The position numbers and the translations under genes were made by a program. A stretch of DNA of 34,829 nt from Bacillota bacterium (GTDB lineage: Bacteria; Bacillota; DTU065). Shown here piece after piece: positions 4,549-20,237 of the stretch. Positions within the stretch are counted from its first letter, which is position 1. Each line of letters opens with the position of its first letter. Where the stretch lies: NCBI GenBank assembly GCA_028708605.1, contig JAQVYS010000013.1, positions 1,083-35,911 of the forward strand. Reading direction: 5' to 3'. The notes below the pieces were generated by a model, which did no database searches, had not been told where the DNA came from, and saw only the letters and a list, made by a program, of their open reading frames with translations.

Positions 4549-5553
4549 TTACTCTATCACTTTTCTTTTTAGTTGCCCACAAGCTGCATCTATATCAGAG
4601 CCTCTAGAGCGTCTTAAAGTTACATTTAAATCCCGACTTATAAGCTTAGCAAATTGTTCGGCAGAAAAAGCGTTTTCACCTTTCCCTTCTATAGGATTTA
4701 CCGCGATTACATTTACATGGCAAAGAAGACCTCTTAGTAATTCGATAAGGAACTTCGCATTTTCTTTACCGTCGTTAAATCCAGGAACCACTGTATATTC
4801 AAAGGTGACTCTTCGATTAGTCGCCTCTATATATTCCTCAATAACCTCTATTAACTCCTTTAGGGGAAATTTGTTATTTATGGGCATAATTTGAGAGCGC
4901 AACTCATCTGTTGGTGCATGCAAAGATACAGAGAGGTTAATCTGCCATGGGGCCTCTTTAAGCGCTCTGATCTTTGGCACTATACCGCAGGTAGATACTG
5001 TCAGATGCCTTGCGCCTAGCCCAAAGCAGTCAGGGTCATTAATAATATCAATTGCCTTTTTAAAATTTTCGAAGTTTGCAAGCGGCTCTCCTTGCCCCAT
5101 TGCTACAGCATTTGTAACTGAAAGCTTCTTGGTATGCTTCCAGTAGTAGAGTTGACCTACAATCTCTCCAGCAGACAGATTTCTACTAAAGCCACTCTTG
5201 CCTGTTGCGCAAAACTCGCATCCCATAGCACATCCTACCTGGGTCGAGAAACAGACAGTTGCCCTGTTTTGCTCTGGAATATATACAGTTTCGATAAGTT
5301 CTCCGTCACTTAGCTCTAAAACAGCTTTTTGGGTGAGGTCTTTTGAACGCTGTATCAGTTTTTCTTTAAGGGGCAAAATAACAATGCCAAGAGTACTTTC
5401 TTGCAAGGAATGTGGTAAATTAGTCATTTTCTTAGTATCTGTGATACCTTTTTTATATACCCAGTCTAACAGCTGCTTGGCTCGAAATTTAGGAAGATTA
5501 AGATCTGTAATATGTTCTTCGAGATCAAGTTTGGTAGAACTAAAGAGATCCAA
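4549..5553 (-). CDS. rlmN: Dual-specificity 23S rRNA / tRNA adenine-C2 methyltransferase RlmN
   Basis: Radical SAM enzyme that methylates C2 of A2503 in 23S rRNA and A37 in some tRNAs. The 334-residue length is normal. The 4Fe-4S cluster motif CAMGCEFC gives C108, C112 and C115. GQGEPLANF is the SAM-contacting GEP region, and SLHAPTDELR and PINNKFPL are family signatures. The C-terminal AACGQL holds the second catalytic cysteine at about residue 325. The start is a TTG at 5553, seven bases after AAGGGGG. Only 27 bases separate it from the divergent plus-strand gene, so the promoter probably lies inside that gene. It heads the rlmN-prpC-prkC-rsgA-rpe unit. Confidence 0.95.
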   Translation of the reverse strand: MDLFSSTKLDLEEHITDLNLPKFRAKQLLDWVYKKGITDTKKMTNLPHSLQESTLGIVILPLKEKLIQRSKDLTQKAVLELSDGELIETVYIPEQNRATVCFSTQVGCAMGCEFCATGKSGFSRNLSAGEIVGQLYYWKHTKKLSVTNAVAMGQGEPLANFENFKKAIDIINDPDCFGLGARHLTVSTCGIVPKIRALKEAPWQINLSVSLHAPTDELRSQIMPINNKFPLKELIEVIEEYIEATNRRVTFEYTVVPGFNDGKENAKFLIELLRGLLCHVNVIAVNPIEGKGENAFSAEQFAKLISRDLNVTLRRSRGSDIDAACGQLKRKVIE

Positions 5554-5580
5554 TATTTAGCCCCCTTAGAGGTGAAAATA

Positions 5581-5868
5581 ATGAAGAGCAAAACCTATTT
5601 TATCACTGGTTACATGGAATTTTTGTTAAAACAAGGTCTAAAATATGAGGAAACTTATGTAGGAGATGCAAGCAGATATCTTAGATTCCTGCTTTCCACA
5701 GCTCCTGCAGATTCCGTTGAAAAGTTTATTGCACAATCAGGCTCTAGTCCATCTTACCACAGACGCCTTACTTCATCACTAAATAGATTCTTGGATTTTA
5801 CTAGAAATAATCTTGAGATTTCTAACCCTGAACAAGACGAATATGGACAAGTTCAGGAAGCTTTGTAA
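5581..5868 (+). CDS. Small stand-alone recombinase core-binding-like (SAM-like) domain protein
   Basis: This gene of 95 residues runs against its neighbours. Its ATG follows GAGGTG by six bases. The predicted helical pattern matches the N-terminal core-binding domain of Xer/phage tyrosine recombinases: YMEFLLKQGLKYEETYVGDA corresponds to the first long helices, RYLRFLL to the next, SVEKFI follows, and SPSYHRRLTSSLNRFLDFT resembles the SxxTxNRxLSALRxFFxFL segment. The protein ends shortly after a SNP where the catalytic domain would begin, so the R-H-R-Y residues are absent. The frame is intact, with no sign of decay. The last 47 bases overlap the 3' end of murC on the other strand. It could be a DNA-binding accessory or a partner or antagonist of Xer; this is inference from a distant match. 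Confidence 0.7.
   Translation: MKSKTYFITGYMEFLLKQGLKYEETYVGDASRYLRFLLSTAPADSVEKFIAQSGSSPSYHRRLTSSLNRFLDFTRNNLEISNPEQDEYGQVQEAL
5597..5605 (-). promoter_or_regulatory. Possible extended -10 promoter for the rlmN operon
   Basis: On the minus strand this reads TGATAAAAT, an extended -10 element (TGn followed by TAAAAT). It would start transcription near 5590, about 37 bases before the rlmN TTG. No good -35 was found. It lies within the plus-strand gene, as it must, because only 27 bases separate the two genes. Tentative. Confidence 0.3.
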
Positions 5869-7174
5869 TTGTTCCAGCTCCCATAGTAAGAATCAAAGCT
5901 CCTTTTGGGGCTTTTTCCTTTAAAAGCTCTGCTGCGTCCTCTAAAGTCTCTGCGTAAAAAACTGTTTTCCCGAGTTTTTTCACTTCCTGTGCAAGAACTG
6001 CACCACTGACTCCAGGAATAGGCTGTTCTGGAGGCGGAGCATAGATACCAAGAACAACAATTTTATCTGCATGGGCTAAAGCTTTAGGAAAGTCATCCCA
6101 TAAAAGCTTAGTACGACTATAGCGATGAGGTTGAAAGCAAAGCCAAATTTCTTTGTCTGGATAACGGTTCCTGGCAGCATCGACTGTAGCTTCAATCTCT
6201 GTAGGGTGATGTCCATAGTCGTCAACTATGAGTAGGTCATCTGTTTGATAACGTATTTCAAAACGTCGACCGATCCCACTAAAGGTTAACAAAGCTTGCT
6301 TTACTTCCTCTATATCTAATCCCAGTTCTAGAGCTACTGCAATTGCTACGAGGCAATTTGCGACATTATGTTTTCCTGGAAGCTTAATCGAAAAGACACC
6401 TAACTCTTGGTCTTTTAAACGGACTTTAAAGGTGGTAGTTTCTCCTTCCAAAATATCATAAGCTCTTAAATCGCCTGCGTTTAGACCGTATGTTAACACT
6501 TTAGATGTGGCATATTTTGCAAGATCTAAAGTTTTTTTGTCATCTGCACAGATTAAAGCTAAATCCCTAATGCTTGCAACAAACTTTTTGTAAGCATCAT
6601 ACAGCTTTTCGTAATCAAACTGGAAATTTTCAAGGTGATCTGCATCTACACTTGAGATGGAGCCAATCTTTGGGACGTAATGCAAAAAGCTGCCATCACT
6701 TTCATCACTTTCAGCGACTACTAAGTCGCTTTTACCAACCCGATAATTCCCACCAAGCTGAGGTATATACCCACCTATTATTCCAGTTGGATCCTGGCCT
6801 AATTTGTAAAGCATATAGGTAATCATTGCAGAGGTAGTGGTTTTGCCATGTGCACCAGAAATCGCAATACCATAGTGGTTATCTAAAATCTCCGCAAGAT
6901 TTTCAGAGCGGTGTATCTCCTTAATATTTTTCTCCCTTGCAGCAACTCTTTCCGGGTTGTCTTTAAGTACTGCTGTTGAGTAAACAACAACATCCGGGTT
7001 TCCCACATTTTCTTTAAAGTGACCAATAAAAATTCTAGCACCTTGTCTTTGTAATTGATCTGTTTGCAAGTTTTCTTTTAAATCAGAGCCTGTGACTTTG
7101 TGTCCTCTAGAAAGCATAATCGCAGCAAGTGCGCTCATACCAATTCCGCCAATACCTATATAATGATACCACAT
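5822..7174 (-). CDS. murC: UDP-N-acetylmuramate--L-alanine ligase
   Basis: Cytosolic ATP-dependent ligase that adds the first amino acid of the peptidoglycan stem. The 450-residue protein has the N-terminal dinucleotide-like fold HYIGIGGIGMSALA (4-17), the Mur P-loop GAHGKTTT (107-114), ESDESDGSF, VDADHL, NVANCLVAIA, DDYGHHPTEI and FQPHRYSRT. The ATG follows GAGGTG by six bases. murC usually lies in the dcw cluster between murG and murB; here it is the last gene of the ftsK-rodZ-hslO-UPF0182 series, preceded by a short hairpin. Its stop overlaps the 3' end of the plus-strand small gene. Confidence 0.96.
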   Translation of the reverse strand: MWYHYIGIGGIGMSALAAIMLSRGHKVTGSDLKENLQTDQLQRQGARIFIGHFKENVGNPDVVVYSTAVLKDNPERVAAREKNIKEIHRSENLAEILDNHYGIAISGAHGKTTTSAMITYMLYKLGQDPTGIIGGYIPQLGGNYRVGKSDLVVAESDESDGSFLHYVPKIGSISSVDADHLENFQFDYEKLYDAYKKFVASIRDLALICADDKKTLDLAKYATSKVLTYGLNAGDLRAYDILEGETTTFKVRLKDQELGVFSIKLPGKHNVANCLVAIAVALELGLDIEEVKQALLTFSGIGRRFEIRYQTDDLLIVDDYGHHPTEIEATVDAARNRYPDKEIWLCFQPHRYSRTKLLWDDFPKALAHADKIVVLGIYAPPPEQPIPGVSGAVLAQEVKKLGKTVFYAETLEDAAELLKEKAPKGALILTMGAGTITKLPELVHIRLVQG

Positions 7175-17041: not shown

Positions 17042-17075
17042 AAAAAAACCGCCTCAAGACCAAGGCCAGAGGCGG
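17042..17075 (-). terminator. Rho-independent terminator of sigG-spoIIR
   Basis: On the minus strand a seven-base-pair stem (CCGCCTC / GAGGCGG, loop of 13) is followed by seven T residues. The stem includes the last codons and stop of spoIIR. Confidence 0.85.
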
Positions 17076-17668
17076 AACTGTTGTAAGAATGCTAGTACAG
17101 TATCGAGTGATGGAGGTTTTGGACGGTCATTTTGCGCAAGCTTAAAACGAAACCTAACCGGTGGCCCCCCACTGCCATCAACAACTTCGATAGCATTTTC
17201 ACCTGCTTCAATAGAGCAAAGAAGCGGAAATAAGACGCACCACCAGTTCTGCCCGTCTCCTTTGCCGATTATAACCCTAAGAGAGAGATACTCTCCGTTT
17301 GGAAGAGTAAGGTTGCCATAGTCTTTCTCAGGGTATTTTTCGCGGCCTAACTCTATTTTCACATCGTATCTTTTATCAATAGCTTCAGCCACTTTTTGAA
17401 CTAAGGCACCTTCATTTTCTCTTACAATTTCAATAACACTTTCAAGATCTTTTTCACCTGAAAGCCAAGTATTCATTTCATTCAAGATGGCATCTCGTGC
17501 TTTAAGCTTCAACATCTGATCTTCTAGACTATCTGAGTTAGCAAGCACATGAAGTCTCAAAAATTCCTGTGAACCATCTGTCGTGCCCAAAAACAATGGG
17601 ATTAGACAAATAGCCATAAAGATAAGTCCCAGTTTTTCTAGTCTCTCTCCCCAGACACGTTTTCTCAT
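17054..17668 (-). CDS. spoIIR: Stage II sporulation protein R
   Basis: Signal protein made in the forespore and exported to the intermembrane space, where it triggers SpoIIGA to cut pro-SigE. The 204-residue protein has an N-terminal membrane or signal segment (about 12-30) and then the family core FLRLHVLANSDSLEDQMLKL, with KARDAILNE right after. The middle contains YPEKDYGNLTLPNGEYLSLR and GDGQNWWCVLFPLLCS, both typical of SpoIIR. The start overlaps the sigG stop (ATGA), so the two are translationally coupled. In B. subtilis spoIIR lies away from sigG; here both would be made from one forespore transcript, with a strong terminator behind. Confidence 0.93.
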   Translation of the reverse strand: MRKRVWGERLEKLGLIFMAICLIPLFLGTTDGSQEFLRLHVLANSDSLEDQMLKLKARDAILNEMNTWLSGEKDLESVIEIVRENEGALVQKVAEAIDKRYDVKIELGREKYPEKDYGNLTLPNGEYLSLRVIIGKGDGQNWWCVLFPLLCSIEAGENAIEVVDGSGGPPVRFRFKLAQNDRPKPPSLDTVLAFLQQFRLWPWS

Positions 17669-18459
17669 AGATTGGTAGCCTCCCCTTCAGAATAGTGTTG
17701 CTTTAGATCTAAAAGAGCAGCTTTTTCTAATCGAGAAACTTGAGCTTGGGAGATGCCAATCTCTTCTGCTACTTCCATCTGTGTTCTTCCTTCAAAAAAG
17801 CGCATGCTTAGGATCTTTCTCTCTCTTTCATCTAGACTATCTATAGCTTCTCTCAAAGAGATCTCTTCAATCCATATTCCATCACTTGTTTTTTCATCAT
17901 CAATTTGATCCATAACAAAAATCGGATCACCACCATCATGATAGATAGGCTCAAAAAGCGAGATTGGCTCTTGGATAGCATCTAAGGCATAGACAATTTC
18001 TTCTCGGTCGATTCCTAAGGTCTCAGCAATTTCATTAAGGGTAGGCTCGGTGCCTTTTTCACTAGCAAGCTTGTCTCTTATTTGCAAGGCTTTATAAGCG
18101 ATATCCCGTAAGGAGCGGCTAACTCTTATAGGGTTATTATCCCTTAAGTACCTTCTTATCTCTCCTATTATCATTGGCACTGCATAAGTTGAAAAACGCA
18201 CATTTTGAGAGAGGTCAAAATTATCGATTGCTTTCATTAAGCCAATACAGCCTACTTGAAAGAGGTCATCTACATTTTCACCGCGATTGTTAAAGCGTTG
18301 AATAACGCTTAAAACCAAACGTAAATTACCTTGGATTAACTCTTCTCTAGCTGAGTCATCTCCATCTTTTACTCTTGCGAGCAGTTTTCGCATCTTCTCA
18401 TTTTTAATAACTGGTAATTCCGCAGTATTAACCCCACATATCTCAACTTTGTTAATCAT
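17665..18459 (-). CDS. sigG: RNA polymerase sigma-G factor (late forespore)
   Basis: Sigma-70 family factor that directs late forespore transcription. The 264-residue protein begins MINKVEICGVNTAELPV, matching the SigG N-terminus. Region 2 includes NLRLVLSVIQRFNNRGENVD and DLFQVGCIGLMKAIDNFDL; RFSTYAVPMIIGEIRRYLRD follows, and region 4 ends in the helix-turn-helix EVAEEIGISQAQVSRLEKAA. The longest frame adds 39 codons upstream, but the ATG at 18459 has GGGAGGAAG and starts with the conserved residues. It is separated from sigE by a strong terminator and has its own forespore-like promoter. Confidence 0.96.
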   Translation of the reverse strand: MINKVEICGVNTAELPVIKNEKMRKLLARVKDGDDSAREELIQGNLRLVLSVIQRFNNRGENVDDLFQVGCIGLMKAIDNFDLSQNVRFSTYAVPMIIGEIRRYLRDNNPIRVSRSLRDIAYKALQIRDKLASEKGTEPTLNEIAETLGIDREEIVYALDAIQEPISLFEPIYHDGGDPIFVMDQIDDEKTSDGIWIEEISLREAIDSLDERERKILSMRFFEGRTQMEVAEEIGISQAQVSRLEKAALLDLKQHYSEGEATNL

Positions 18460-18491
18460 ATGTTCTTCCTCCCTACAGGCCATCTCATAAA

Positions 18492-18521
18492 AAGTATGGG
18501 TGCAAAGAGCAGAAGATATAC
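18492..18521 (-). promoter_or_regulatory. Forespore (SigF/SigG-type) promoter of sigG-spoIIR
   Basis: On the minus strand GTATA (18517-18521) is followed after 15 bases by ACCCATACTT, whose ATACT core fits the SigF -10 pattern. The overlapping CATACTT at 18 bases fits a SigG -10. Transcription would start near 18485, about 26 bases before the sigG ATG and upstream of its GGGAGG site. It lies just after the sigE terminator, which explains how sigG can be off while sigE is on. The match is by eye. Confidence 0.5.
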
Positions 18522-18534
18522 CCCTTATTGAACG

Positions 18535-18568
18535 AAAAAAAAACAAGGTCCGTTTTCGGACCTTGTTT
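18535..18568 (-). terminator. Strong terminator after sigE
   Basis: A perfect 12-base-pair stem (minus strand AAACAAGGTCCG / CGGACCTTGTTT, loop AAAA) with a run of T residues at its 3' side. The stem begins directly at the sigE stop codon. It ends the spoIIGA-sigE transcript before sigG. Confidence 0.92.
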
Positions 18569-19309
18569 TTAATCAAACTTTTTTAGCTCACGCCTGAGTT
18601 TCTTCATAATACGTTTTTCTAAGCGGGAAATATAGGATTGTGAGATACCCATTTTATCTGCAACCTCTTTTTGGGTGAGTTCCCTTTCTATGCCAAGACC
18701 GTAACGCAAAGTAACTATTTCTTGCTCTCTTGGCTCTAGTTTTAGAAGAGCAGCTTTTAAGAGATTTCTATCAGTTTCTTCTTCTAAGACTTGATAGACA
18801 CCATCTCCATCTGCTGCCGGTAAAACATCAAGCCAAGAAAGCTCATTACCGTCCCAATCAGTATTTAAGGGGTCTTCTAGATAAACTTCCTTTGTTCTTT
18901 GGTGACGTCTTAAAAACATCAAAATCTCATTTTCAATGCATCTTGAGGCATACGTTGCAAGCTTAATATTTTTACTAATATCAAAGGTATTAACAGCCTT
19001 AATCAGGCCAATTGTGCCTATAGAGACTAGATCCTCTATTCCCACACCAGTATTTTCAAATTTCCTTGCTATATACACAACCAGTCTTAAGTTCCTCTCT
19101 ATTAGAGTACTTTTTACAGAAACTTCGCCGGATTGAAGCTTCTTAAGTAACACCCGCTCCTCTTCTGGTAGAAGAGGTGGTGGTAAAACCTCACTAGAAC
19201 CTACGTAATAAACAAAACGGCGTCTCCTTAAGAAGCGGCTGAGAAAAAGCTTGATATCTAATAGAGACAGGTGAGTGAGTTTAGCTAAAAACCTTTTAAG
19301 CCATTTCAC
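18569..19309 (-). CDS. sigE: RNA polymerase sigma-E factor precursor (early mother cell)
   Basis: Pro-sigma factor cut by SpoIIGA after septation. The 246-residue protein has a hydrophobic and basic pro-region of about 34 residues, with an RRRRF stretch just before the [12 protein letters not shown] site that corresponds to the YYIGGSEALPPP cleavage region of B. subtilis. Region 2 has [20 protein letters not shown] and [15 protein letters not shown], and region 4 has [21 protein letters not shown] choose the GTG at 19309, eight bases after GGAGG; the GTG at 19318 overlaps that site. The start lies inside the end of spoIIGA (14-base overlap), so the protease and its substrate are coupled. Confidence 0.95.
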
Positions 19310-20189
19310 GCTGTTCACCTCCGGTTTTAACCATCAAAAGTGCTGGATGAATCAGCGCTTGATACTCTCCTTTTTGACTTAAGGCATTATTCTCCAACCC
19401 AATTATTACACCTGGCAGTTTGACCTGCTTACCTTTATGTTTGAGATAAACCGAATCAGGTCTTAGCCCAACTAAAACTCCGTTATCTTTTCCTACTGAC
19501 TTAAATGGTATCAAAACCAATCTTCTGCCCCAATTTTCAGTGCTCTCAGAATCAACTAAAATCGGGGTCATCTGTTCCATAGACCTCATAATATCCTCAG
19601 GAACTAAACTTTTAAGAACCTCTTTTTCAACTATAACAACTCTTTTGCCACTTACAGGCTCAACTAATTCATTGCCACTATCGATAAGGGCTCTAAACAC
19701 TTGCTTGTGTCCACCAATCTCAACAACTAGGGCAATCTGACCAAAGCTTTCCCAAAATCTTTCATGTAAAAGCCCCCAGCCTATCTCTGCAATAAGTAAA
19801 ACTGCTATATGTGGACCAAGTAATACCCAAATCCTAGCAACATTCATCGACTGCAACCAAAAACCGATTCCTCCTGCAACAAGGGCTAACAGATAAACCA
19901 TTGGCAAAACTGCCTTTAGATCAATTTTGTTAAAGGCAAGCAAAACCATAAGAGCAGGCATAATCAAGGATAAAGTTGCCAGTATCGCAGGTGACAGAGA
20001 AAAATCACCTTTTGTTAGAAGCAAAAATCCTAGATAATAGAGACTACCTAAAATTGCTCCTAAAAAAAGCCCACCGGGACGCGCTTCTCGATTGGCTATC
20101 TCTCCTCCAGCCCAGAGGATTAGATAGTCTCTCCAAAATTCAGCGGCCAGGCAGGCGATTAATAGGTCTACATAAACTACAAAGGACAT
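19296..20189 (-). CDS. spoIIGA: Sporulation sigma-E factor processing peptidase
   Basis: Membrane aspartic protease that activates pro-SigE when SpoIIR signals from the forespore side. The 297-residue protein has about five membrane segments in the first 150 residues, starting [20 protein letters not shown]. The soluble protease half contains [20 protein letters not shown] with the catalytic Asp in DSG. I start at the ATG at 20189 because AAGGTGG lies six bases upstream and it gives the usual short N-terminus; the ATG at 20210 has a poor site. It follows ftsZ by 70 bases. No clear 0A box was seen in that gap. Confidence 0.93.
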
Positions 20190-20237
20190 ACCCTGCCACC
20201 TTCCCTTCATAACCTAATAATTACTTGAGAAGGTAGA

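Follow-up and report, generated by a model that had tools for sequence, protein, structure and literature searches.

A conserved gene beside rlmN in two classes of Bacillota whose product resembles the core-binding domain of tyrosine recombinases, without a catalytic domain

Background

Domesticated recombinases are usually recognised by means of a catalytic domain that is still present. A precedent for turning a recombinase fold into a repressor is MrpR, the master repressor of SPbeta: this phage-borne protein of about 320 residues is reported to keep the core-binding domain together with an inactive catalytic domain (PMC10516654). A conserved family consisting of the core-binding domain only would demonstrate that this half is able to persist on its own among the genes of a cell, and such a family is missed by current family models. 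A literature search, limited in its sources and terms, returned no paper on a family of free core-binding domains.

The window studied here, that is, the whole stretch of 34,829 nucleotides that was analysed, contains an orphan gene (Table 1) that an earlier note had read as the stand-alone core-binding domain of a tyrosine recombinase.

Results

The orphan gene and its relatives

The orphan open reading frame is a real gene. Its frame runs from the ATG at 5581 to the stop codon at 5866-5868, a total of 95 codons, and a second reading of the sequence bears out the frame and the coordinates that had been claimed for it, with a Shine-Dalgarno-like GAGGTGA 5' of the start. An earlier in-frame ATG exists at 5512, with an open frame from there on, but it falls inside rlmN; the start was taken at 5581 because this position fits both the ribosome site and the point where similarity begins in the relatives. 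Most family members have a ribosome site 5' of the start, the starts having been chosen partly by that criterion.

Table 1. Position of the orphan gene and of related features in the window
Feature	Coordinates	Strand	Remarks
rlmN, divergent neighbour	4549..5553	-	Pfam Radical_SAM and RlmN_N; 27 bases from the orphan start codon
Shine-Dalgarno-like GAGGTGA, 5' of the orphan ATG 5581	5569..5575	+	read from the sequence; similar sites in relatives
Orphan gene, core-binding (SAM-like, integrase-type) domain, probable	5581..5868	+	95 aa, no catalytic domain; sequence, relatives, profile match, dN/dS
murC, convergent neighbour	5822..7174	-	Pfam Mur_ligase domains; overlaps the 3' end of the orphan gene by 47 bases
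Sporulation genes spoIIGA and spoIIR, with two sigma factors (of sigE/sigG type judging from their position)	17054-20210	-	directly after ftsZ

The similarity of the gene to its relatives is far above chance. In single-sequence searches, the four relatives of the window's class have E-values from 2.1e-29 to 1.3e-37, the best of them belonging to the same genus and being 68% identical to the orphan protein, and a relative from another family matches at E = 3.0e-19. A search of the genome to which the window belongs found a single copy. The products of the window and of locus L003 are slightly acidic, with isoelectric points of 5.8 and 6.3; the other eight of the ten members computed are basic.

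Distribution, neighbourhood and selection

A 6-member profile detected the gene in 17 of 398 genomes of the phylum, five from the window's own class (five of five) and 12 from one other class, presumably Limnochordia; the genomes sampled outside these two classes contain no relative. With a 17-member profile, one copy each was found in 56 of 72 genomes of the second class. The gene is absent from 80 rlmN loci (out of 138 confirmed) taken from named records, a Hydrogenispora sp. among them, and no relative was found in the viral contigs, phages and plasmids searched, the phage search yielding three partial matches at E = 0.5.

Both neighbours in the window are intact by Pfam, in line with the claim that the gene lies between two conserved housekeeping genes and that murC is whole; the 47-base overlap with the 3' end of murC, which is on the opposite strand, is absent from the earlier note. 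On the 5' side, 57 of 61 loci have a divergent rlmN; as for the four exceptions, L165 and L201 are close to the end of a contig, and L108 and L116 show no rlmN in the available stretch. The 3' side holds murC in all five members of the window's family, where the tRNA is absent from the locus, and tRNA-Pro(CGG) in 51 of the 56 second-class loci, just downstream of the gene at -22 to 265 bases. This tRNA is on the strand of the orphan gene in 23 loci and convergent with it in 28, depending on the family; among the five loci without it, three (L006, L171, L205) stop shortly past the gene, whereas two (L112, L164) show none. Beyond the tRNA, a convergent spo0A, identified by Pfam Spo0A_C in the three loci tested, is present in 45 of the 49 second-class loci that have more than 700 bases of room, and the order continues with rsmB, a zinc peptidase, fmt and others.

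Some particular loci deserve a description of their own. The nine loci L166, L173, L177, L185, L187, L191, L193, L194 and L197, all of family f145, have the orphan stop codon 22 bases inside a convergent tRNA-Pro gene, which adds a GRGDTI tail to the product. In part of family f16 (L165, L167, L176, L179, L181, L190), a palindrome-like sequence, TGGCAAASTATGCCA, occurs in varying forms in the intergenic region that separates the orphan gene from rlmN, where it may belong to a promoter or operator controlling rlmN. The single-contig genome G189 (L225, L227) has an rlmN apparently split over two frames. Loci L208, L209, L212 and L214 and their relatives, in the second class, place spo0A beside tRNA-Pro(CGG) and rlmN.

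Sixteen second-class genomes have no match. The rlmN locus is visible in ten of them, where tRNA-Pro adjoins rlmN and no trace of the orphan gene is seen; in the remaining six, rlmN was not found or lies at a contig end, so that absence there is unsure. In a tree of rlmN, the gene-less lineages are scattered among the carriers, two members of family f104, for example, standing beside the carrier G214. This scatter suits an old presence followed by several losses, with counts of gains and losses that are soft because many of the deep forks are weakly resolved (16 of 51 are open). The earlier note had made its reading depend on close relatives, and there the orthologues are neither broken nor absent: all four relatives in the window's family carry the gene.

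Substitution rates were computed by the Nei-Gojobori method for all pairs of the 61 members, 37 of which are comparable (0.1<pS<0.6 and >70 codons). Their median dN/dS is 0.15, which indicates purifying selection; the two largest values (0.53) belong to pairs of distant sequences, and the pair formed by the window and L002 is saturated, with a pS of 0.79.

Kinship with the core-binding domain of Xer proteins

Taken by itself, the window protein matches no integrase family in scans of Pfam and PHROGs, the sole Pfam match being to an Ig-like family (E = 0.25). Since no relevant Pfam family is matched, a simple family search would have missed the domain. A scan with PF02899 detects the orphan gene in none of 17 carrier genomes, and sequence searches of the PDB with the orphan protein give no integrase.

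The profile of 60 family members was aligned by hhalign with 21 Xer core-binding domains taken from the same genomes: the alignment is collinear, end to end over 82 columns, with a score of 36.3, a probability of 88 and P = 3e-6. Controls score lower: at most 29.2 among 200 column shuffles (95th percentile 16.9), 12.3 for the reversed profile, and no more than 12.8 for pieces of the catalytic domain. When the 60 members are scanned one by one, integrase families come first in the three libraries, though with weak scores: Phage_int_SAM_4 and Phage_int_SAM_1 lead Pfam, with matches in 15 and 12 of 60 members (best E 3.7e-4 and 2.2e-4), XerD TIGR02225 leads NCBIfam with 5 of 60 (best E 0.016), and the integrase PHROG 1 leads PHROGs with 17 of 60 (best E 1.6e-4). 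A second Pfam scan, of ten chosen members, gave integrase models in L183 only, with E-values of 0.014 and 0.13 that do not reach the Pfam cut-offs.

Residues Y26, D29, F33, R62, F70 and F73 align with conserved residues of Xer; the invariant S31, R32 and R35 are peculiar to the family, within a very conserved signature segment, EE.Y.GDASRF.RFLL. All 61 products end at 56 to 116 residues, before any catalytic domain, the shortest being that of L205, at a contig end; the PF00589 domain, with the residues R-K-H-R-H/W-Y that define a full tyrosine recombinase, is thus lacking in the whole family. The evidence of these comparisons for an integrase-type domain is good, and homology of the family with the Xer/integrase core-binding domain appears well supported, in agreement with the initial reading of a stand-alone domain.

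A sporulation lead

The window contains spoIIGA, two sigma factors and spoIIR, at 11-14 kb from the orphan gene, and its lineage thus has sporulation genes. It is then possible to conjecture that the orphan protein belongs to the forespore or to sporulation, as a small DNA-binding factor under a promoter of sigma-F/G type. The convergent spo0A of the second class fits this conjecture, but the adjacency persists in genomes that have no orphan gene, and can therefore be old synteny. Carriers of the orphan gene have spoIIR in 57 of 61 cases, genomes without it in 11 of 16 (Fisher p 0.016, relatedness not corrected); however, G401, a genome 97% complete, has the orphan gene and no match to spoIIR.

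The remaining argument comes from promoters. The regions upstream of spoIIR could not serve as examples of sigma-F promoters, as spoIIR directly follows a sigma gene, and the promoter of that sigma gene was used instead: GAATA-N15-GGnnATACT, a sequence like the sigma-F type, precedes every one of the 29 sigma genes that were recognised in 30 spoIIR loci. A strict pattern, GGNNANANT, matched 20 of 61 regions upstream of orphan genes, but also 13 on the reverse strand, and its matches in f145 lie inside the coding sequence of rlmN; for these reasons it was replaced by a two-part score. A score of at least 8 out of 9 is reached by 10 of 61 genes, against an average of 1.3 and a maximum of 5 in 100 shuffled sets. 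Families f55 and f146 have a site similar to the sigma gene promoter, GGATA-N14/15-GGnnA, before the orphan gene in ten of ten cases with a relaxed pattern (one with GTTTA) and nine of ten by score, against a background of 2 and 4% of segments in f55 and f146 loci. However, nine of the ten high-scoring genes belong to this f55/f146 lineage, and none is found among five genes of the window's family, ten of f16 and 21 of f145.

The promoter and the associations with spo0A and spoIIR hint at sporulation, not in the window itself, and are a lead rather than a finding: we consider a forespore or sporulation protein unlikely. The more specific conjecture that, in spore-forming Bacillota of two deep-branching classes, a host-domesticated, catalysis-free integrase core-binding domain is made in the forespore and binds the chromosome, serving spore chromosome organisation or a spore-specific genetic switch, is a little more doubtful still.

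Relation to Xer proteins

Could the orphan protein modulate the resolution of chromosome dimers, as a free core-binding domain sitting on half of a dif-like site or in a complex with Xer? The domain would be of the right kind, and partners exist, for the window's genome encodes two full-length Xer proteins with core-binding domains of their own, in two PF00589 genes located on other contigs. The distribution of the genes argues against it: the orphan gene accompanies sets of two Xer proteins (in its own genome and in f55) as well as a single divergent recombinase of 350-390 residues in f16, where nine of ten examined genomes have one PF00589 match and the tenth has two. Moreover, PF00589 proteins are present in all 39 genomes examined, including all nine that are without the orphan gene. 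With carriers having one or two Xer proteins, and gene-less genomes having Xer too, the orphan gene is tied to no particular set. Co-occurrence thus gives no backing to a competition for dif sites or to a help to XerC/XerD, and the window contains no match to the dif pattern of the B. subtilis type, in a search that covered the window out of the whole genome. We hold a role in dimer resolution to be quite improbable.

A split recombinase, whose catalytic protein would be encoded separately, was considered and rejected, since both Xer proteins of the genome are full length. The Xer-like recombinase of f16 (L140, L141, L153, L254-L256) has, where read, a long insert in its N-terminal part.

Predicted structure and remaining alternatives

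An AlphaFold model built from 60 sequences has a mean pLDDT of 84 and helices at 7-18, 23-40, 45-53, 57-78 and 83-94; it replaced a 6-sequence model with a pLDDT of 66.7 and meaningless PDB matches. A Foldseek comparison of the model with the PDB found nothing significant, the three top rows being an Xer from an archaeon and two entries for the Tn1549 integrase. The earlier note had named a predicted structure unlike the SAM-like fold as a refutation; the model is helical, and many of its weak matches, none of them significant, are core-binding domains of integrases. In a second look by structure alignment, 10 of the 32 rows with Z of at least 2 are named integrases or recombinases, and most integrase rows cover no more than residues 31-95; XerD 1a0p is among the ten, with Z 3.0 and rmsd 3.0 over 53 residues, alongside unrelated rows whose Z is as high or higher. 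Unrelated helical chains outrank the integrases, with two ribosomal chains on top; the lack of a fold family in this second list is not evidence against that fold.

These results leave some room for a helical fold unrelated to integrases, with a convergent resemblance, binding for example RNA or a partner protein, and the presence of the rRNA methyltransferases rlmN and rsmB among the neighbours can be read in the same way. Such a fold is hard to reconcile with the profile match, which is collinear with Xer domains over the full length and has clean controls, or with integrases being ranked first by three family libraries, and we judge it about as improbable as the role in dimer resolution.

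Integrases often lie beside tRNA genes, and tRNA-Pro(CGG) adjoins most second-class copies, but the idea that the frame is the decaying, non-functional remnant of an element once integrated there, which the earlier note already held to be less likely, is scarcely tenable in view of 61 conserved relatives with open frames and ribosome sites, the fixed locus, the low dN/dS, the single copies across two classes, and the lack of any element at the loci or relative in mobile DNA. A guard against integration at this tRNA was also considered and rejected: in relatives that lack the gene, tRNA-Pro still adjoins rlmN and no element separates the two, and in the window's family the tRNA is missing from this place.

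Discussion

The explanation that best fits these observations, with a probability that we put at roughly 0.6, is that the gene is an old one of the host, passed on by vertical descent, and that it encodes a tyrosine-recombinase core-binding domain which lacks the catalytic domain and now serves as a DNA-binding protein that does not cut. An integrase or Xer protein would have lost its catalytic half and given rise to the ancestor of the orphan gene. Recombination by the orphan protein alone is impossible because it has no catalytic domain, and a small, non-cutting DNA-binding protein seems the most likely role. It would most probably act as a regulator or an architectural factor at chromosomal sites of its own. 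The orphan helices 2 and 4, which we take to be the counterparts of the DNA-facing helices of Xer and Cre, bear Arg32, Arg35 and Arg62, invariant or nearly so, which may contact DNA. A use in sporulation would be the weakest step of this scenario. The family provides a small, testable candidate for a DNA-binding protein, encoded close to spo0A in lineages of which little is known, probably including Limnochordia.

Among known proteins, the closest are XerC and XerD, with whose core-binding domain (PF02899 Phage_int_SAM_1, PF13495 Phage_int_SAM_4) the orphan family shares its length, the order of its predicted helices and aligned conserved positions, and which provides its weak but first-ranked Pfam matches. 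Unlike XerC and XerD, the family has no catalytic domain, possesses a signature segment of its own, and escapes genome scans with PF02899. As in MrpR (PMC10516654), a tyrosine-recombinase fold would have been reused for binding DNA without recombination; in contrast to MrpR, the orphan family consists of the core-binding domain alone, and is found at a fixed locus of the host.
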